Shown: piece by piece, positions 15,545 to 26,830 of the stretch
Layout: every line of letters begins with the position of its first letter
How positions within the stretch are numbered: position 1 is the stretch's first letter
Source of the DNA: Hydrogenophaga sp. SL48
GTDB lineage: Bacteria; Pseudomonadota; Gammaproteobacteria; Burkholderiales; Burkholderiaceae_C
DNA: 64,000 nucleotides
Assembly: GCF_021729865.1 (NCBI RefSeq)
Contig: NZ_CP063400.1
Span: 3,968,001-4,032,000, forward strand
Reading direction: 5' to 3'
The notes under the pieces: model-generated
Told to the model about the DNA's origin: nothing
The model's input: the letters and a program-made list of their open reading frames with translations, nothing else
Database searches by the model: none
Made by a program: the position numbers and the translations under genes

Positions 15545-16435
15545 CTATCCGCGTTTCTGGATCGTGTTGGCCAGGTGGCGCTCGCGGAAGCGGCGCATCG
15601 CGCGGAACAGGATGGGCGGTGTGTAGTCCTGCGAAATCTTCCAGCGCAGGCCCCCGATCTTTTCGTTGGGACGCTCGGCGAAGATCGTCGTGTGTGCCCC
15701 GTTGACCTCGGCCTCGGGTCGCCCGTTGGTGTAATAGAACAAGGCCAGCGACTTGCGGGAGTCACCCTCGGGGCAGGTGAGCGGATCGGGGTGGCCGTGG
15801 AAGGTGTTGCTGGTCGGCGAGAAGATGGCCAGGCGGTTGAAGACGGGCAGGATCTTGGCGCCGCAGTAGGTGACCTCGCGGTCCCACAGCTCCAGGCTGC
15901 CGCCGTACTCTTCCTTCCAGTCCTTGTTCATGTAGAAGATGACGTTGATGCGGCGGTCCAGGAAGTTGGCATCGTGTTTGTTGAAGTCTGCGTGCAACTT
16001 CAGCAGGCCACCGCGCGGTGTCTGGTGCAGACCGCCCCCGCGCATGCTCGGGTCGGCGATCATGTTGTCGATGCCGGTGACCTTCTCCAGGAAGCGAAGG
16101 AACGGGGCGGAATTGAACTGGTACAGCATCTGCCGGGTGACCGGCCCGAACTTGGTTTCGTCCACGCACACCAGCTTGCGCTCGGCAGGCCGGTTGTAGT
16201 TGTGCCACTGAATCTCCTGCGCCTTGGGAAACTCCTGCCACATCGCCTCGGCGATGTCCGGCGGCAGGAAGTTGTCGAACGCCATGTGGTTGAAAGGGGT
16301 GCCCAGCTTGTACTGGGCCTCACCCTCCAGGGCGAGTTGCGCGTAGCGCGGGTCATCGAACACAAACCGGTTGGCCAGATCTTTCAGTTCCACCAGGGAC
16401 TCCTTGGACACGGGGCCGAACGCCGGCCCCTTCAC
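15545..16435 (-). CDS. 2-oxoglutarate/Fe(II)-dependent oxygenase
   Basis: 296 residues with a double-stranded beta-helix of the prolyl-4-hydroxylase-like class. The iron triad is visible as H148xD150 (LKLHADFNKH) and H213 (NTFHGHPDP), with R227 (DSRKSLALFYY) positioned to bind 2-oxoglutarate. Substrate unknown; relatives act in sugar, lipid or small-molecule modification. The start is a GTG at 16435 preceded by CAGGA. It follows the flippase-like gene by 33 bp on the same strand, so both may belong to one unit that could extend from the phc operon. Confidence 0.88.
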   Translation of the reverse strand: MKGPAFGPVSKESLVELKDLANRFVFDDPRYAQLALEGEAQYKLGTPFNHMAFDNFLPPDIAEAMWQEFPKAQEIQWHNYNRPAERKLVCVDETKFGPVTRQMLYQFNSAPFLRFLEKVTGIDNMIADPSMRGGGLHQTPRGGLLKLHADFNKHDANFLDRRINVIFYMNKDWKEEYGGSLELWDREVTYCGAKILPVFNRLAIFSPTSNTFHGHPDPLTCPEGDSRKSLALFYYTNGRPEAEVNGAHTTIFAERPNEKIGGLRWKISQDYTPPILFRAMRRFRERHLANTIQKRG

Positions 16436-16468: not shown

Positions 16469-17428
16469 TCAGCCCGGCAGCTCCTGCGACTTGCGGGACT
16501 GCAGGTGACGCCCCAGCACGCCCACCAGCACGGTGAGCCCATCCCCCAGCAGCGTGGTGAGACGCATGCTGACGGCCAGCCCGGTCGCCACCGCACCGCC
16601 GGTGAGCGGAGACAACAACACCACCATCATGGCCTCACGGACACCCAGGCCACCGGGTGCACCCGGCACCACATAACCGACCACCCAGGCACTGCTGAAC
16701 AGCAGGGTGATGCTGAACCAATCGACATCAGGACGCGCGAAAAACACTTCAGCCTGCAATTTCAGCACGTACCCCAGGATCATGAAATTGACCAGGATCA
16801 ACAGGGACACAAGTAACGATGTCCGCAGACGCGGCAGGCGCAGCAGCTGGCCGCCACCGATCTTCATGCTGAGCTTGGGCAGCACGGTGTTGAGCACCTT
16901 GATGCCCAGCCAGGGCAGCACCAGCGCCAGCGGCAGCAGCCAGGCCGCCTGCGCGGTGAAGCCCGGGCTGACCGCCTGCACCGTGTTCAGGTCCCAGAGC
17001 ACCCAGGTGGACAACAAGGCCAGCGACAGGCTGATGATCAGGTTCCAGATGCCCTCGAACACCGCCGTGCCCACCGCCACGCCGACGGGAATGCCGGTGG
17101 ATTTCGCCAGCACGCCGCGCCCCAGGAACTGCCCGACGTTGCCCGGCAGGTACTTGCCCAGCTGGGAGATGAAAAACACCTGGACCGCGAGCCGCGTGGG
17201 CACGCGGTGCCCCTGGTCGGACATCAGCAACCGCCAGACGTGGGTGCCGAAGAAGTGGGTGAGCACCACGCTGCAGATGCTCAGGATGGCCACCGCCACG
17301 GTCTTGGGATTGAAGGCGATCGGTGGCAGCTGTTCGACGTGCTTCTTGAACGCCAGCAGGAAATAGGCGAAGGAGACCAGGACGGCTGCGTACATCAGCC
17401 ACTTGAACAGGGTCTTGGCGTGCTTCAT
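16469..17428 (-). CDS. Flippase-like membrane protein (UPF0104/LPG synthase TM-domain family)
   Basis: 319 residues with about eight TM helices. It contains QLGKYLPGNVGQFLGRGVLA and VVGYVVPGAPGGLGVREAMM, both signatures of the lysylphosphatidylglycerol synthase TM region/UPF0104 family. It lacks the cytoplasmic aminoacyl-transferase domain of MprF, so it is probably a lipid-linked substrate flippase rather than a synthase. Inferred location: inner membrane. Upstream lies a 168 bp gap after phcQ with one 7-bp stem (17466-17495) but no strong terminator. Confidence 0.85.
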   Translation of the reverse strand: MKHAKTLFKWLMYAAVLVSFAYFLLAFKKHVEQLPPIAFNPKTVAVAILSICSVVLTHFFGTHVWRLLMSDQGHRVPTRLAVQVFFISQLGKYLPGNVGQFLGRGVLAKSTGIPVGVAVGTAVFEGIWNLIISLSLALLSTWVLWDLNTVQAVSPGFTAQAAWLLPLALVLPWLGIKVLNTVLPKLSMKIGGGQLLRLPRLRTSLLVSLLILVNFMILGYVLKLQAEVFFARPDVDWFSITLLFSSAWVVGYVVPGAPGGLGVREAMMVVLLSPLTGGAVATGLAVSMRLTTLLGDGLTVLVGVLGRHLQSRKSQELPG

Positions 17429-17596: not shown

Positions 17597-18550
17597 TCAG
17601 GCGGTGCGCCCGAGCCGCTCCATCGCGTCGGCCAGCCAGTCCGGCGGCAAAGCCACGGGCCCGGTGAGGCTCACGCGCCAGCCGCCCGGCTCCGCCGCCA
17701 CCTCGGCGGCGCTCCCGCACCAGAGCAGCCACGCGAACCAGGCGCAGGCCGGCGCCGGTGCCGCCTCGCCCGCGGGCGCGGCCAGCAACGCGGTCAGACC
17801 CGCCGCGTCCGGCAGGTGCACGGCCCCGCCCCGGACCGCGCCGCCCAGCGCCTGCGCCAGCACCGTCAGCGCCTGGTCGTCGTCCGCGCGGGCGCCCCAC
17901 TGCTGCATCCGGTGGCGCAGATGGGTGGCGATGCCCGCGCCGCGCCGCGCTTCGGCCTGCAGCAGGTCGGCGTGGTCCCAGCGGTTCCAGTCCACCGCGG
18001 GTTCGATCCCGCCCACCACCAGGGCCGCGCGGGCAAAACCGGCCACGGCGGCCTCATGGGCCGTCTCGTGCACGGCGGCGGCGATCGTCAGCAGCGAGCC
18101 CAGCCGGCTGCCCAGCAGGCGGGACTGCTGCGCGAGCAGCTTGTCGCGCACGAGCCCGTCGCGCTCGCTGCGCAGCTCGGCCAGTTCCATGGCGTTCTTG
18201 AGGTCGGTACGCAGGCTCTCCAGCTCCCAGGGCTTGGCGATGTAGCGGTAAATCTCGCCGGTGTTGATGGCGTCGATGGCCTCGCCCAGCTCGGAGTAGG
18301 CGGTGGTCAGCATGCGCACGATGTTCGGGTAATGCTGGCGCGCATGGCGCAGCAGCTCGTTGCCGCGCTCACCCGGCATGCGCTGGTCACACACCAGCAC
18401 CGCGATGTCGGCGTGGTGCGCGCTGAGCACCGCGCGGCCTTCTTCGACCGAATTCGCCGTGAGCACGGGCGCCAGCGGTCCCACCAGGCGCTCGAAATAC
18501 TTCAATGCAATCGGTTCATCGTCAACGTAGAGGATTTTGGTGGGTGTCAT
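17597..18550 (-). CDS. phcQ: Response regulator of a phc-type quorum-sensing system (PhcQ-like)
   Basis: 317 residues. N-terminal receiver (1-118): LYVDDEP (D10, D11), phosphoacceptor D55 in LVCDQRMPG, and K106 in YIAKPW. A helical segment follows (RTDLKNAMELAELRSERDGL), then a poorly conserved region starting VHETAHEAAVAG that resembles a degenerate kinase H-box without a recognisable ATP-binding half. There is no DNA-binding domain. Identification rests on the receiver type plus gene order with phcR, phcS and phcB. In Ralstonia, PhcQ modulates quorum-sensing-dependent genes. It overlaps phcR by ATGA at 18547-18550. Confidence 0.75.
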   Translation of the reverse strand: MTPTKILYVDDEPIALKYFERLVGPLAPVLTANSVEEGRAVLSAHHADIAVLVCDQRMPGERGNELLRHARQHYPNIVRMLTTAYSELGEAIDAINTGEIYRYIAKPWELESLRTDLKNAMELAELRSERDGLVRDKLLAQQSRLLGSRLGSLLTIAAAVHETAHEAAVAGFARAALVVGGIEPAVDWNRWDHADLLQAEARRGAGIATHLRHRMQQWGARADDDQALTVLAQALGGAVRGGAVHLPDAAGLTALLAAPAGEAAPAPACAWFAWLLWCGSAAEVAAEPGGWRVSLTGPVALPPDWLADAMERLGRTA

Positions 18551-19752
18551 GTCGGTTCCTCGTCTGGGTGTTCTTGGATAGGGGGAAAGTACAGACTGAC
18601 CACGGTGCCGCCATCCGGGCCCGACCGGACCTCGATCGTGCCGCCCATCGAGGTCATCACCCGCTGGCAAAACACCAGGCCCATGCCGCTGCCGCCGCTG
18701 GTCGCGCGGGTGGTCACCGGTTCGTGGGTCAGGCGCCGCAACACCTCGGGGGCGATCCCGGGGCCGTTGTCGATCACCCGGATCACCGATTGCGGGGGTA
18801 GGCCCGGGGCGGGCGCCCCCAGTTCGAGCAGCAGGTGGACGCGGGGCTGCCCGGGTGGCGCAGCCCGTAGGGCCATCAGCGCGTTCTTCACCAGCGTGCA
18901 GATCACGAGATACAACAGATCGCGCCGCCCCGGCAGCGTGAAATCGCGCGCCAGATCGCAGCCGAGCCACACGGACTCCCCCTCCTCGAAGGGGTACTCG
19001 TCCAGCACCGCCTGCACCAGGTCGCTGGCCCGCAAGCTGGCCGAACTGTCGGCATGGTAGGCGTCACGGGCGGTTTGCACAAACGAGGACACCAGCGACT
19101 GGGCGTAGTCCGACCGGCGCAGCGCGGCCTCCAGCATGGCCTTGACTTCACCCGGACGGCGCTGGCCGATGCAGGCCACCTCGGGCTTGCAACCGATCGC
19201 ATCCAGGTGCCGGTCGCGCATCGCGGTGAGGTAACCGCTCACGGTCGCCAGCGGTGTCGTCACTTCGTGGGCCAGAAACCCCAGGGTCTCGCGCAAGGTG
19301 GCCTCGCGGCGCTCGATGAGCGCCTTGTCGCGCGCCCGCTCGCGGCTGTTGGCCAGCGCGCTGCGCAGGGCCTGGCGCGTGATCGTTTCGTCCAGCGGCT
19401 TCTCCAGGATGGCCTCCACATGCCCCTGGTTGACCGCGGCCATGGCCACGTCCTTGTCGGCGCAAGCTGACACCAGGAGGCGCGACACGTGGGGGTGTTC
19501 GCGCCGTGCGGTGCTCAGCAGCGCCACGCCGTCCTGGCCCGGCATGCTGTAGTCGGTCAGCAGCACCGCCACCTCGTGCCCACGTTGTGCCAGCAGGTCG
19601 AGCGCCTGCGCGACCCCGCCGGCCGTGAGCACGACAAACTCGTCGCCGTACTGTCTCGCGAACCACTTGAGGGCCATGGGCTCGTCATCGACCAGCAGGA
19701 TGGCGTGGGCGTCCAGCGCGGAGGGCTTTGCACCCGGGGTGTCGGACATCAT
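18547..19752 (-). CDS. phcR: Receiver-histidine kinase hybrid of a phc-type quorum-sensing system (PhcR-like)
   Basis: 401 residues with an inverted hybrid layout. N-terminal receiver: LLVDDEP (D22, D23), D67 in LLTDYSMPG, K118 in EKPL. A cytosolic histidine kinase follows: H162 in FLAHEVTTPLATVSGY, N-box TLVKNALMAL, G1 VIDNGPGIAP, G2 SGGSGMGLVF. There are no TM segments. A response regulator ending in a kinase domain is the unusual hallmark of Ralstonia PhcR. By analogy it is phosphorylated by PhcS at high cell density and relieves repression of PhcA activity. Overlaps both neighbours by 4 bp. Confidence 0.8.
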   Translation of the reverse strand: MMSDTPGAKPSALDAHAILLVDDEPMALKWFARQYGDEFVVLTAGGVAQALDLLAQRGHEVAVLLTDYSMPGQDGVALLSTARREHPHVSRLLVSACADKDVAMAAVNQGHVEAILEKPLDETITRQALRSALANSRERARDKALIERREATLRETLGFLAHEVTTPLATVSGYLTAMRDRHLDAIGCKPEVACIGQRRPGEVKAMLEAALRRSDYAQSLVSSFVQTARDAYHADSSASLRASDLVQAVLDEYPFEEGESVWLGCDLARDFTLPGRRDLLYLVICTLVKNALMALRAAPPGQPRVHLLLELGAPAPGLPPQSVIRVIDNGPGIAPEVLRRLTHEPVTTRATSGGSGMGLVFCQRVMTSMGGTIEVRSGPDGGTVVSLYFPPIQEHPDEEPT

Positions 19753-21077
19753 GTGGACGGCCTCGGCAGATCAAAGGTGAACTCGGTCCATTCACCCCAC
19801 ACGCTGTCCACGGCCAGGGTTCCGCCGTGGCGCTGCACGATGCCGTAGCTCACGCTCAGCCCCAGGCCCAGTCCGGCACCGACATCGCGGGTGGTGAAAA
19901 ACGGCTCGAACACCCGCCCGATGTGGGCCGGATCGATGCCCGGCCCGTTGTCTCGCACCGAAACCGCCAGCCGCTCGCCCTGCTGCTGGACGCGCACCAC
20001 GATCTTCGCCCCCAGGCGCTGCACCGCCTGCAACGCGTGCGCCGCGTTGCTCAGCAGGTTGATCAGCACTCCGATGATGGCCGGCTCGTCGCCCAGCACG
20101 TGGGTGTCCTGTGGCAGGTCCACCGTGACCTCGATGCCCTTGAGTTCGTAGCCCGCGAGCCGCAGCGCCGAGCGCACCGCGTTCTCCAGCAGGAACGGGC
20201 GCTGGCTGTCTTCCCCGGGTTTCTGGTAGGCGAAGGTCTTGAGGTCGGAGACGATGTTCTGCACCCGGGTCATGCCTTCGAGCGCGTCGTCCAGGCTCTC
20301 CTTGAGCATGGGGTCGGTCTTGGCCGCGGGCACCATCAGGCCCATGTTGATCGCCATCAGGCTGTAGTTGACCGGGTTGTTCAGCTCGTGCAGCAGGCCG
20401 GCGGAGAGCGTGCCGATGGCGGCCATCTTTTCGCGCTGCAGCAACTGGCCCTTGACTTCGGCCAGGGTGCGGTTGGTTTCCTTCAACCGCTCGTTCTGCT
20501 CCGCCACCTGCTCCCGGAGGGCAAACAGGCGCAGGCGGCTCAACTCGGCAAAGTAGGTGCAGCCCACGCAGATGATGGCCGAGAAGGCCGTGAACAGCAG
20601 GTGCGCGACGAACTGGCCCGTGGTGACGATGCCGCCCGCGTGCCAGAAGCAGGCCACGGCATAGATGAGGCAGGTGAACACCCCGAACGCCAGCCCTTCG
20701 AGGTAGCTGATGGGCACGATCATGCCCACGGCGTACAGCGCCAGATGAAGCCCCACGAAGTAGATGGACGCCGCCCCTTCGGTCTGGGCGATCATCCAGG
20801 CGATCATGACCTGCGGCAGGACCAGCCACAGCAGGGTCAGCATGCGCACATGGCGCCGCCCGAACTCGCCCTGGATGACCCAGAGGATCAGCAGGGTCGC
20901 CACCGCCACCAGCGCACGCACCAGCAGAAACACGGTCGCCTGCTCGGGATAGATCGCCATGTCCAGCCCGATGCCCGCCAGCACCAGCACGGCCGAGGTG
21001 ACGCAGCCGGTCTTGCTGAACGCCAGCCGCACGTCCTGCACCGCCGCACCCAGTGACTGAACGGAGGCGTCGGTCAT
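19749..21077 (-). CDS. phcS: Membrane sensor histidine kinase of a phc-type quorum-sensing system (PhcS-like)
   Basis: 442 residues. The N-terminal sensor has about six TM helices (25-175) with only short loops, and a coiled coil (180-215) leads to the kinase core. H-box SAGLLHELNNP with H230, N-box NLLSNAAHAL, G1 RDNGPGIDP, F-box EPFFTTRDVG, G2 GLGLGLSVSYG. The sensor lacks a periplasmic domain, as expected for a hydrophobic signal perceived in the membrane. In Ralstonia PhcS senses 3-hydroxy fatty acid methyl esters. It follows phcB with a one-base overlap (TGATG) and overlaps phcR by 4 bp. Confidence 0.82.
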   Translation of the reverse strand: MTDASVQSLGAAVQDVRLAFSKTGCVTSAVLVLAGIGLDMAIYPEQATVFLLVRALVAVATLLILWVIQGEFGRRHVRMLTLLWLVLPQVMIAWMIAQTEGAASIYFVGLHLALYAVGMIVPISYLEGLAFGVFTCLIYAVACFWHAGGIVTTGQFVAHLLFTAFSAIICVGCTYFAELSRLRLFALREQVAEQNERLKETNRTLAEVKGQLLQREKMAAIGTLSAGLLHELNNPVNYSLMAINMGLMVPAAKTDPMLKESLDDALEGMTRVQNIVSDLKTFAYQKPGEDSQRPFLLENAVRSALRLAGYELKGIEVTVDLPQDTHVLGDEPAIIGVLINLLSNAAHALQAVQRLGAKIVVRVQQQGERLAVSVRDNGPGIDPAHIGRVFEPFFTTRDVGAGLGLGLSVSYGIVQRHGGTLAVDSVWGEWTEFTFDLPRPST

Positions 21078-22549
21078 CAGGCCGTGACGCGCTCAAGCGC
21101 TGGGACGAGGAAGGACGCGAACACGTTCACGCCGGTGGCGTCGGTGAAGATCTTCTCGTCGCTGCGCCGGCTCGGAAGCACCCCCTGAAGGCGGGCCTCA
21201 TCGCGGTAGATCAGGTACCACTCCAGCACATGCTCCATCACCCCGCGCTGCGAGTTGCTGGCGTGCACGTTGGTCACCAGCACCTGGCCGCCCGGCAGGG
21301 TTCTGGCGTGCAGGTACTCCAGCAGGCGGCTGCAGACCTTGTCCGACAGGTAGTCGAACAGACCGGCGCAGTAGGCAAAGTCGTAGGCCTCGCTCGCCTC
21401 CGTGGCGTCGGCCCGGGTGGCCCGCTTGAGCAGGTTGTGCACCGAGTCGTTGACCAGCTGGAACTGCACCGGCTTGCCCAGCTGGCGCCCCACCTCCAGC
21501 ATCTTGGCGCGGGTGTGCTCCAGGGTCACTTCGCTGAAATCCAGCAGCGTGAAGTGCACGCTGTCCGGGTCGCCGCCGCCCAGCAGGAAGCGCTCGACCT
21601 CCACCGCCGGCCCGCAACCGATGTTCAGGATGCGCACCGGCCGGCCCAGGGTCCGCGCCCGGGCGCTGACTTGCTTCAAATGGTCCACCAGGATGTCGAT
21701 GCGGTTGCGATGCGCCTGGGCCACAGCGGACTGCAGGAACAAGGCGTTGATCATCTGGAAGTAGGTGGTGGCCCCTTGCTGGGGGTCTGACAGGATCTGG
21801 TTCACCATCTCGTAGTCACCGGCATAGCCCAGTGGCTTGGCAAACGTGCGGTACACGAAAGGCGCGCGCAGCAGCAGGGGGTGCAGGGAGGCCTGGGCGA
21901 AACTGCGGTAGGTGGCCAGGTCTTCCTCGGGCACATCCTGGGTTTCGGCCTCCAGCGCGGCGAAATAACCGGCCGCCGCCGCCATCACCGGCGACGCGAT
22001 TTCCTGGAACACCGCCGGCGACACGCGGCCGTCAGCGTCCCTCGGCAGGGCACTGGAAAAATCGGCGTGGTCGGTCCACCGGGACACCTCCGTGAGATAG
22101 GCGCGGATCTCGCTCACCGCCACCAGGTAGCCCCGCTTGATCTTGAAGCGCCCGAACCAGTCCTCCACGAACCGCTGGGCCTGCTGGCCCACACTGCCCG
22201 AGTCGCCCCGGGCCATGCTCAGATCGGACCACTCGTCGATCAGGGCCAGCGACACCACGGCCATCAGCCCGGTGTTGAGCAGGCTCACCACCACCGCCTT
22301 GCCCTTGTAGATGCTGCGGTCGCCCGAGCGGATGTTCAGCTCGGTGAGCACCTCGCTGACCTGGACGATGGAGTAGGGGTTGTAGACCTCCATCGCCAGC
22401 GAGCGCCGCTGCAGGCTCGTCAGGGTTCCGCGTGCAACCTCACCCTGGCTGTTGCGGAAAGTGACGACGGGGTCGAATGGACGCTGGAGTTGCACGGCGG
22501 AGTTGCTATCAATAAGGGAGAGGCCGAGCAATGCATCGACCGTAAACAA
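21077..22549 (-). CDS. phcB: SAM-dependent methyltransferase, quorum signal synthase-like (PhcB-like)
   Basis: Up to 490 residues. The C-terminal half is a class I methyltransferase: motif I RILNIGCGPAVEVERF (306-321), acidic loop TLLDFSEVTLEHTRAKM, motif IV region YDFAYCAGLFDYLSD, and post-motif LPGGQVLVTNVH. The N-terminal region (about 20-105) resembles a small beta-barrel, perhaps PilZ-like. Ralstonia PhcB methylates 3-hydroxy fatty acids to the diffusible ester signal; the chain length here cannot be predicted. The start is uncertain: the longest frame begins with TTG at 22549, and GTG at 22495 (then QLQRPFDPVVTF) is a good alternative. Neither has a clear ribosome binding site. First gene of the four-gene unit. 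Confidence 0.8.
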   Translation of the reverse strand: MFTVDALLGLSLIDSNSAVQLQRPFDPVVTFRNSQGEVARGTLTSLQRRSLAMEVYNPYSIVQVSEVLTELNIRSGDRSIYKGKAVVVSLLNTGLMAVVSLALIDEWSDLSMARGDSGSVGQQAQRFVEDWFGRFKIKRGYLVAVSEIRAYLTEVSRWTDHADFSSALPRDADGRVSPAVFQEIASPVMAAAAGYFAALEAETQDVPEEDLATYRSFAQASLHPLLLRAPFVYRTFAKPLGYAGDYEMVNQILSDPQQGATTYFQMINALFLQSAVAQAHRNRIDILVDHLKQVSARARTLGRPVRILNIGCGPAVEVERFLLGGGDPDSVHFTLLDFSEVTLEHTRAKMLEVGRQLGKPVQFQLVNDSVHNLLKRATRADATEASEAYDFAYCAGLFDYLSDKVCSRLLEYLHARTLPGGQVLVTNVHASNSQRGVMEHVLEWYLIYRDEARLQGVLPSRRSDEKIFTDATGVNVFASFLVPALERVTA

Positions 22550-24790: not shown

Positions 24791-25714
24791 TCAAGAGGCG
24801 GCCAGCAGCCTGGGCAGCCTTTCCCCGAGCAGGTCCAGCACCACCCGGGTCTTCAAGGGCAGGCGCCGGCTGTGCGGCCACAGCAGGTGCATGGGGAAGC
24901 CGAACGGCTCCGGCTCGTCAAACACCTGCAGCAATTGCCCCGAGGCCACGTCCGGCGCCACCAGCCATTTCGGCAGACGCACCAGCCCCAGCCCCGCCAC
25001 GCCCGCGGCGCACATGGCCTCGAGGCTGTCGAACACCAACGCCGGCGCGGGAATGGGCAGCGTGTCTTCAGCCCGTTCGCCTTGGCCGAACTGCCACAGC
25101 TTGGCGGCCCCGTCGCGACCATAGGCGATGAAGCGGTGCGCAGGGCATTGCGCGCGCAGGTCGGCCAGGCCTGCGGGCCTGCCTCGGGTGGCCAGGTAGG
25201 CCGGCGCGGCATACAACCCCATCCACTGGTGTCCGACGGACCGGGCCGACAGCACCGCGCTGTCGGGCAGCTCGCCACTGCGCAACGCCACGTCCACCCC
25301 GTCTTCCACCAAGTCCACACGCCGGTCGTTCAGCGACACCTCCAGCACCAGCTCGGGGTGCTGCTGCGCCAGCTCCAGCAGCAAGGGCACCACACACCGG
25401 CGCCCCACCACGTCGGGCAACGACACGCGCACGCGCCCGGTGGGCACCAGCCGGCCCGCATCGATCTCCTGCCGCGCGGCCTCCAGTTCCTGCAGTGCGC
25501 GGCGGCAGCGTTCGTAACAGGCAGCACCCTCGTCGGTCAGGCTCTGGCTGCGGGTGGTGCGGTGGAACAGCCGCACACCCAGGCGCGACTCCATCACCGA
25601 AATGCTCTTGGCCACCGCCGAGCGGGTGATGTGCAGGCGCTGCGCCGCTTGCGCAAAGCTGCCGGCCTCCACCGCCGCCACGAACTCTTCCACGCCCCTG
25701 AAACTTTCGCTCAT
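24791..25714 (-). CDS. LysR-family transcriptional regulator
   Basis: 307 residues. N-terminal winged [46 protein letters not shown]. The effector-binding domain belongs to the substrate-binding-fold type, starting near 90. It is divergent from an alcohol dehydrogenase-like gene over 102 bp, the classic LysR arrangement, so that gene is its probable target along with itself. The effector is unknown. ATG at 25714. It is not close to phcA in context: it sits beyond htpG and faces the dehydrogenase. Confidence 0.93.
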
Positions 25715-25727
25715 TGACAACCCCAAA

Positions 25728-25742
25728 TCAACAATGTGTTGA
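25728..25742. promoter_or_regulatory. Candidate LysR-type operator
   Basis: TCAACA-ATG-TGTTGA, a perfect dyad with 6-bp arms, lies in the middle of the LysR/dehydrogenase divergent region 13 bp from the regulator's start codon. It fits autoregulation plus control of the dehydrogenase. Confidence 0.5.
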
Positions 25743-25816
25743 AAATTATCCACCACACAGCAATCTTTGGAACCAATAGCATCGGTCGCTGGTTTCAACC
25801 CTTCAAGCAACACACC

Positions 25817-26830
25817 ATGACGGACGCACCCAACACCCTTTCCCGCTGGCAACTCAGCGCCTATGGCCGCCAGCACCTCAGCCACGTCGAGGCCCCCATG
25901 CCCACCCCGGGGCCGGGCCAAATCCTGGTGCAGGTGGCCGCCGCTTCGCTCAACTACCGCGATCTGCTGATGATTCACAACGGCATGGGCACGCCCTTCA
26001 CCGCCCCCTGGACGCCCGGCTCCGACATGGCCGGCCGCGTGCTCGCCGTGGGCGACGGCGTCAAGCGCTGGCAAGCCGGCGACGCAGTGATCAGCAGCTT
26101 CTACGCTGGCTGGATCGACGGCAAACCTTCGCCCGAGGTCTTTCCCCTGGGCGGACCCGGCCCCGGCATGTTGGCATCCCACGTGCTACTGGACGCGCAA
26201 TGGGTCGCGGCCGCGCCCACCACGCTGAGCCCTGCGCAGGCCAGCACCCTGCCCTGTGCGGCCCTGACCGCCTGGTTTGCCCTGATCGAACAGGGCGGGC
26301 TGCGCGCCGGCCAGACCGTGCTGATCCACGGCACCGGCGGCGTCGCGCTGTTCGGCCTGCAACTGGCACGCTTGCACGGCGCGCGCACGGTGGTGGTCTC
26401 GGGCGACGCCAGCAAACGCGAGCAGGTGCTGGCGATGGGTGCCACCCATGCCCTGGCGCGGGATGGCGACTGGGTCGCCGAGCTGCACCAACTGACCCAG
26501 GGCCACGGCGCGGACCACGTGCTGGAACTGGTGGGCGGCGCCAACGTGGAGCGTTCGGTGCAAGCCCTGGCGGCAGGCGGACGGCTGTCGGTCATTGGCG
26601 TGCTGGACGGCGACCGCATCGGCACGTCCGCCTACCCGCTGATTCGCCACCGGACCGTGCTGCAAGGCATCAACGTGGGGCACCGCCGTGCCCTGGAGGA
26701 TCTGGTGCGCGCCATCGACGTGAACGGGCTCACGCCCACCGTGGCCGCCACCTACAAGGCCAGCGAGCTGACCGCCGCGCTGGACCACCTGGCCCGAGGC
26801 GCTTTCGGCAAGATCGTGGTCACGTTCTGA
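25817..26830 (+). CDS. Zinc-type alcohol dehydrogenase/quinone reductase family NAD(P)-dependent oxidoreductase
   Basis: 337 residues of the MDR superfamily. GroES-like N-terminal domain: ASLNYRDLLMIHNGMG and PGSDMAGRVLAVG. Rossmann domain with VLIHGTGGVALFGLQLARLHGARTVVVSGDASK. The structural zinc cysteine cluster is absent and the usual catalytic Cys is replaced by Asn-Tyr in SLNYRD, as in zinc-free quinone reductase-like members. It probably reduces an enone, quinone or aldehyde using NADPH. Start at 25817 (MTDAPNTLSRW); the upstream frame reads through the operator. Controlled presumably by the divergent LysR regulator. Confidence 0.88.
   Translation: MTDAPNTLSRWQLSAYGRQHLSHVEAPMPTPGPGQILVQVAAASLNYRDLLMIHNGMGTPFTAPWTPGSDMAGRVLAVGDGVKRWQAGDAVISSFYAGWIDGKPSPEVFPLGGPGPGMLASHVLLDAQWVAAAPTTLSPAQASTLPCAALTAWFALIEQGGLRAGQTVLIHGTGGVALFGLQLARLHGARTVVVSGDASKREQVLAMGATHALARDGDWVAELHQLTQGHGADHVLELVGGANVERSVQALAAGGRLSVIGVLDGDRIGTSAYPLIRHRTVLQGINVGHRRALEDLVRAIDVNGLTPTVAATYKASELTAALDHLARGAFGKIVVTF

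Follow-up and report, generated by a model that had tools for sequence, protein, structure and literature searches.

A phcBSRQ Operon of Hydrogenophaga sp. SL48 with a Variable phcB–phcS Block and No Detected PhcA Orthologue

Gene Content and Layout of the Locus

A four-gene unit was analyzed in Hydrogenophaga sp. SL48, the genome of which is a single contig of 5.43 Mb. The unit lies in a stretch of 64,000 nt, referred to below as the window; positions are those of the window unless a contig or locus is named. By sequence and gene order, the unit is phcBSRQ. All four genes are located on the minus strand. The first of them, phcB (21077..22495), encodes an S-adenosylmethionine-dependent methyltransferase of 472 amino acids (aa) read from a GTG codon at 22495; phcS (19749..21077) encodes a membrane histidine kinase of 442 aa with the phospho-acceptor H230; phcR (18547..19752) encodes a receiver followed by a histidine kinase (401 aa); and phcQ (17597..18550) encodes a receiver and a conserved C-terminal domain that belongs to no Pfam family (317 aa).

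The corresponding open reading frames (ORFs) extend over 22549..21077, 21077..19749, 19752..18547, and 18550..17597, with overlaps of 1 bp (phcB/phcS), 4 bp (phcS/phcR), and 4 bp (phcR/phcQ). An earlier, sequence-only reading of this DNA had described a phcBSRQ-type operon of four genes overlapping by 1 to 4 bp and reaching 22549. The overlaps agree with the ORF list, and sequence and gene order agree with the Ralstonia system, but the TTG start at 22549 was not retained: alignment with relatives favors GTG 22495, which is probably the start of phcB. The same reading overlooked a variable block (20463..22243, minus strand) that comprises phcB from approximately codon 85 to its end and phcS codons 1–205, which encode the sensor; its boundaries were transferred from relatives using identity profiles and DNA windows. 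A scan of the locus for promoters and terminators gave no signal above chance.

Domains and Conserved Residues of the Phc Proteins

The SL48 PhcB is 56% identical over 461 aligned aa to PhcB P0124 of R. pseudosolanacearum; no second copy is encoded in the SL48 genome. Pfam gave three class I methyltransferase matches, every one of them under Pfam's own cut-off. The AlphaFold model (predicted local distance difference test score, pLDDT, 86.2) shows a class I methyltransferase fold at approximately residues 213–466 and an N-terminal beta-rich domain (barrel) at residues 10–85 that corresponds to no Pfam family. PilZ was not among 25 of the 26 Pfam families recorded for 37 PhcB members, and the fold search spanned residues 213–466. 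Residue R22, reported to be mutated in evolved GMI1000 lines (PMC6989110), is R22 in SL48 as well and is kept in at least 90% of the aligned rows. The lengths of the SL48 proteins (472, 442, 401, and 317 aa for PhcB, PhcS, PhcR, and PhcQ) are near those of the R. solanacearum complex, for which PMC8578825 gives 464–468 aa for PhcB, 368–374 aa for PhcR, and 336–337 aa for PhcQ.

In PhcS, Pfam detected HisKA and HATPase_c. A crude Kyte–Doolittle count, in which some peaks split or merge depending on the threshold, places hydrophobic peaks before HisKA at about 26–42, 49–65, 80–96, 105–121, 128–144, and 156–172; these peaks are in keeping with the six transmembrane helices proposed earlier, joined by short loops. 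H230 is present in all 107 aligned PhcS sequences, and the residue of the same number matters in R. pseudosolanacearum strain OE1-1 (PMC11960443).

PhcR contains, in this order, a receiver, HisKA, and HATPase_c, which bears out the receiver-then-kinase layout of the sequence-only reading. Residues D67, K118, H162, N290, D328, G330, G332, G356, and G358 are kept in 81 of 81 full-length PhcR sequences, a count that leaves out loci L108, L186, and L193, where the PhcR match was in fact PhcQ. As for PhcQ, Pfam found a receiver only, and found it in 42 of 42 members, as expected for the stand-alone receiver that had been assigned to the fourth gene. R149 is invariant in the 42 aligned sequences and is probably the counterpart of R154 in GMI1000 PhcQ, a change of which impairs that protein (PMC6989110). 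The AlphaFold model (pLDDT 89.4) shows a C-terminal domain that is helical and alpha/beta; the Foldseek and VIA rows obtained with the model concern the receiver. That the domain is a degenerate kinase had been suggested by hhalign, which matched it to the kinase of PhcR (probability 98). This match was an artefact, since PhcQ rows from L108, L186, and L193 sat in the PhcR set; without them, the probability dropped to 0.15.

The Variable Block

The phc genes of 11 Hydrogenophaga loci diverge unequally. Between genomes G822 and G840, identity in the relay and flanks is 98% (htpG), 97% (PhcS kinase), 95% (PhcR), 94% (PhcQ), and 97% (the oxygenase described below), compared with 62% in PhcB and 39% in the PhcS sensor. 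Counted per 40 residues, PhcB identity is 100% and then 92%, going down to ~50% from residue 80, and PhcS identity is 25–62% across the sensor, rising to 88–100% from residue 200. In the DNA, a stretch of ~1.8 kb at 47–73% is bordered by flanks mostly at 89–98%. In the DNA comparison, a few windows beyond the block have low identity too (45, 75, and 28%). The reverse pattern was noted between the window locus and that of G048, with PhcB at 86%, the sensor at 87%, PhcR at 67%, PhcQ at 70%, and htpG at 87%. Sensor identity is as low as 33% within Hydrogenophaga; its 11 loci appear to comprise at least five sensor types, the type of the window being common to three others.

Similar profiles were found in other genera. 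In Ralstonia, L113 differs from eight other loci in the sensor (47–48% identity) and little in the kinase (92–95%); in Cupriavidus there are two types with sensor identity of 56–61% between them; and the profile recurs in genus g230 of the same family (L194). The picture in family genus g202 (L187) is less clean, as the PhcB start and PhcR diverged as well. In addition, two R. pseudosolanacearum PhcB sequences (P0124 and P0125) are 98–100% identical in the first 120 residues and 64–95% identical past residue 160.

Among 330 pairs of loci with kinase identity of at least 90% and PhcQ identity of at least 85% (pairs, like the triples considered below, are not independent), the sensor is at most 65% identical in 29, at least 80% in 300, and in between in a single pair. 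PhcB identity is 62–85% (median 74) in the 29 low-sensor pairs and 84–100% (median 95) in the 300 high-sensor pairs. The medians for PhcB residues 7–80 are 97% and 99% in the low- and high-sensor pairs, and those for residues 121–460 are 69% and 94%. Four genomes entered the pair and triple sets twice (L029/L111, L030/L043, L031/L074, and L034/L114), and for L076 PhcQ was taken from the neighboring second copy.

A partial Mantel analysis of PhcB and sensor, given kinase and PhcQ, was performed in four groups (11, 16, 37, and 33 loci) and gave r of 0.91, 0.87, 0.95, and 0.86, with 0 of 2000 permutations in each case; the Cupriavidus/Ralstonia set comprised 37 of the 40 listed loci, three having no usable ORF. 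The trees of the block and of the relay reject each other in approximately unbiased (AU) tests (p 4e-6 and 3e-33).

The principle of the block is already known within one species complex, and the existence of two signal types in R. solanacearum has been published. In the R. solanacearum complex, PhcB and PhcS are reported to track signal type, and PhcR and PhcQ to track phylotype (PMC8578825, citing Kai 2015); phcB and phcS are described as under balancing selection in R. solanacearum, with agr named as a functional analogue (PMC6580516). The depth, edges, and cross-genus spread of the block are the new part: no account of them, with or without PhcA, was found in the open literature, subscription papers being outside the scope of the search.

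Search for PhcA

The query was the PhcA-type LysR gene that adjoins fur in R. pickettii and Cupriavidus; the position of phcA beside fur is described in PMC2864759. Orthologues were detected in four of 12 genomes, all of them Ralstonia or Cupriavidus, at 561–792 bits; overall, true orthologues in these two genera score 550–792 bits at 74–100% identity, one partial copy scoring 584 bits. In the one-contig SL48 genome, no PhcA orthologue was found. The top LysR protein (30% identity, 110 bits) scores no better than paralogues within Ralstonia and Cupriavidus (109–125 bits) and failed the reverse search: for this candidate, at C1:4052446, the best Ralstonia match was another LysR protein (49%, 305 bits), and PhcA itself matched at 29% and 105 bits. 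The LysR gene of the window (24791–26182) is absent from the PhcA matches of its own genome, among the matches listed.

None of the 25 genomes of the same family with phcB yielded PhcA, no match exceeding 129.5 bits or 33%; in 23 of the 25, completeness reaches 90% or more and contamination is low. In several of them, the best LysR gene is found within 35–65 kb or so of phcB. In the collection of named genomes, PhcA was found at E ≤ 1e-60 in 17 of 36: nine Cupriavidus, five Ralstonia, and three that carry no label beyond Burkholderiaceae but cluster with Ralstonia and Cupriavidus by PhcS type. At the same threshold it was not found in the other 19 (14 Paraburkholderia, two Oxalobacteraceae, and three metagenome-assembled genomes). 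As many as 58 candidates were scored in a genome, which makes an overlooked orthologue in this set unlikely. The sequence-only reading had implied control of PhcA by the operon and had proposed a search for phcA elsewhere in the genome; because no orthologue was found in the complete genome, such control cannot hold in SL48.

Proposed Mechanism and Alternative Readings

Taken together, the data make it probable that the locus is a true PhcBSRQ unit which works without PhcA and in which phcB-3' and phcS-5' change together, whether by exchange or by divergence of the whole block, with synthase and sensor kept matched. PhcB would methylate a 3-hydroxy fatty acid, or a close relative, to give a diffusible ester. 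The membrane domain of PhcS would sense this ester, H230 would be phosphorylated, and the phosphate would pass to PhcR and PhcQ, the latter acting on signal production and/or another output. Exchange or divergence of the block as a unit would leave synthase and sensor matched. Since the operon is phcBSRQ, it is a fair inference that SL48 makes a related lipid signal, as the earlier reading had supposed.

Several observations weigh against this reading. The trees of the C-terminal part of PhcB and of the sensor reject each other in AU tests (34 log units vs. 429–763); the two halves of the block therefore lack one common history throughout. Among 5318 triples in which relay and sensor conflict, PhcB follows the sensor in 3611 and the relay in the other 1707, and donors of the block were not found. 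Finally, PhcQ of R. pseudosolanacearum is reported to bind and stabilize PhcA (PMC13320629), and this cannot be its role in SL48: as no PhcA was found there, PhcQ must act otherwise. A role in signal production is possible, since it needs no PhcA; PhcQ is reported to be able to affect signal production independently of PhcA (PMC6989110).

The strongest competitor, in our view rather unlikely, is that the block arose from fast local divergence, that is, joint diversifying selection on synthase and sensor, and not from recombination between lineages. The block nearest that of G840 is that of G597, at 75% (PhcB) and 56% (sensor), so that no recent donor is seen; the edges are blurrier in Ralstonia L097/L113, and the divergence of the PhcB start and PhcR in g202 (L187/L191) points the same way. 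However, the identity between G822 and G840 falls from 89–98% to ~62% inside one 150-bp step, the window and G048 are 86–87% alike in the block while PhcR and PhcQ are at 67 and 70%, and the conflict between block and relay trees also argues against purely local divergence.

A second alternative places the output, instead of PhcA, in an Lqs-type set of the same genome, composed of a kinase, an LqsR-like protein with a receiver, and a class I/II aminotransferase, which is located ~58 kb from phc (L196:9195-12814, C1 ~3924194-3927813, outside the window). PhcX, a member of the LqsR family, adjoins phcB in the loci of Ralstonia and in three f37 genomes, each counted once; for R. solanacearum, it is reported to act as a global regulator (PMC10653808). 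Nevertheless, the SL48 set is not adjacent to phc, its LqsR-like protein matches PhcX at 34% over 162 aa with a receiver match under Pfam's cut-off, and the joint occurrence of Lqs and Phc is described as common in Betaproteobacteria (PMC10653808); reporting of PhcBSRQ through this set is accordingly judged improbable. It is equally doubtful that PhcB methylates some different acceptor, not a 3-hydroxy fatty acid, and that the operon is no quorum sensor: sequence cannot reveal the acceptor, and extraction of 3-hydroxypalmitic acid methyl ester from Cupriavidus metallidurans is reported to have failed despite activity (PMC2864759), but the 56% identity to Ralstonia PhcB extends across almost all of the protein, and a synthase and a sensor that change in step fit a signal–receptor pair.

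Beyond the reading of a PhcBSRQ unit that works without PhcA, a wider one may be entertained tentatively, the balance tilting slightly against it. Phc would be a lipid-signaling module widespread in Burkholderiales, joined by PhcA only in the line of Ralstonia and Cupriavidus; the block would be a recombining dialect cassette that makes the 3-hydroxy fatty acid ester signals of close species mutually unintelligible; and the neighboring oxygenase may tailor the Hydrogenophaga ester further.

Comparison with Described Systems

The SL48 locus shares with Ralstonia Phc the four orthologous genes in the same overlapping order, H230 of PhcS, and the other phospho-sites; the dependence of PhcB/PhcS on signal type and of PhcR/PhcQ on phylotype reported for the R. 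solanacearum complex (PMC8578825) is a further likeness. It differs in that no PhcA orthologue was found, PhcX is not adjacent, the block divergence in Hydrogenophaga is larger (sensor down to 33%), and two extra genes, F and O, are present. The phcBSRQ genes are likewise conserved in Cupriavidus, where Phc is reported to work in C. metallidurans as well as in C. taiwanensis (PMC2864759, PMC10653808), but the examined Cupriavidus genomes carry PhcA.

The pherotypes of staphylococcal agr and Bacillus ComQXP have conserved flanks around one contiguous variable segment, which takes in the end of the synthase gene and the sensor of the receptor. The variable synthase-end/sensor segment of phc appears analogous to this arrangement. 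The systems are not homologous, the phc signal would be a lipid ester rather than a peptide, and the likeness is one of sequence pattern. If the reading of a PhcBSRQ unit without PhcA is true, Phc would be a general module with the master regulator as an add-on, which would alter the view of what PhcQ is for. The specificity of agr peptides was mapped by swapping; natural matched synthase–sensor blocks in non-pathogens would let lipid-signal specificity be mapped by a 1.8-kb swap.

Distribution of phc Loci

PhcB matches were detected in 16 of 399 genomes of the order (E ≤ 1e-3), 10 of them strong (at least 55% identity, SL48 included), and in 25 of 399 genomes of the family, representing eight of 141 genera. 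In the collection of named species genomes, 247 stretches encode relatives; the best 80 of these 247, from Cupriavidus, Ralstonia, Paraburkholderia, Oxalobacteraceae, and other Burkholderiales, were taken as loci. Because PhcS and PhcQ genes follow phcB in order and on the same strand in 80 of 80, the arrangement is not due to chance. A full PhcR is encoded in 56 loci, and its kinase part is lacking in 24. As phcQ is reported to weigh more than phcR in OE1-1 (PMC8578825), this loss fits the genetics. A receiver-only PhcR was seen in 21 of the 24, all Paraburkholderia-type loci (L078–L105 in part, L110, and L112), with best ORFs of 140–253 aa. Paraburkholderia translucens has two phcB loci on one contig (L076 and L090), ~10 kb apart and on opposite strands, one with a full PhcR and the other without.

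Among 20 further loci of the same family, 16 are complete, two stop at contig ends after phcS, L186 is cut, and L193 has PhcS and PhcQ but no PhcR kinase. In L108 and L193, the order is B-S-Q, and no separate PhcR gene was found. No relative was found in viral contigs. In the plasmid collection, 138 records, 121 of them from Rhizobium, encode weakly PhcB-like methyltransferases; one record reaches 80% coverage of PhcB, and among the 20 matches listed most are at ~28% over half the length.

Although Phc has been described as genus-specific to Ralstonia (PMC8578825), phc is reported in Cupriavidus (PMC2864759), and clusters beyond Ralstonia have been described with Hydrogenophaga named in a figure legend (PMC10653808). 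With these reports and the 247 stretches, the occurrence outside Ralstonia, to which the sequence-only reading had drawn attention, is not new; the locus is of interest for its block and its missing regulator, not because such an operon is present.

Accessory Genes F and O

Downstream of phcQ, at a distance of 168 bp, the window contains F (16469-17428, minus strand), which encodes a flippase-like membrane protein of 319 aa (LPG_synthase_TM, PF03706). It is followed by O (15545-16435, minus strand), encoding a 2-oxoglutarate (2OG)-Fe(II) oxygenase of 296 aa (PF13640). Both are possible accessory genes. Beyond the window, 89 loci were examined, and neither gene was found flanking them. Within Hydrogenophaga, F-O follows phcQ, or else F-O or O alone stands ahead of phcB, between htpG and phcB. 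F adjoins phc in four of five loci of the genus (window included), on either side.

A survey of O, in which 30 of 35 loci with an oxygenase match were examined, showed matches (E ≤ 1e-20) in 22 of 67 genomes of the genus, 13 of them at 79% identity or more. In 11 of these 13, O is adjacent to phc (six after phcQ, five before phcB); the remaining two have no phc gene within the stretch taken. The suggestion that F and O are extra members of the operon is thus borne out as to linkage in Hydrogenophaga, but G048 has phc with neither gene beside it. Because the linkage occurs on both sides of phc, a shared role is suggested; F and O may also be merely island neighbors. That they tailor or export the ester is speculation.

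A second 2OG oxygenase, 65–68% identical to O, lies at most 1.5 kb from a histidine-kinase match in nine of nine loci (L211, L220-L227); the SL48 locus of this second oxygenase (L228:6678-9673) has a 602-aa PAS kinase as the neighbor.

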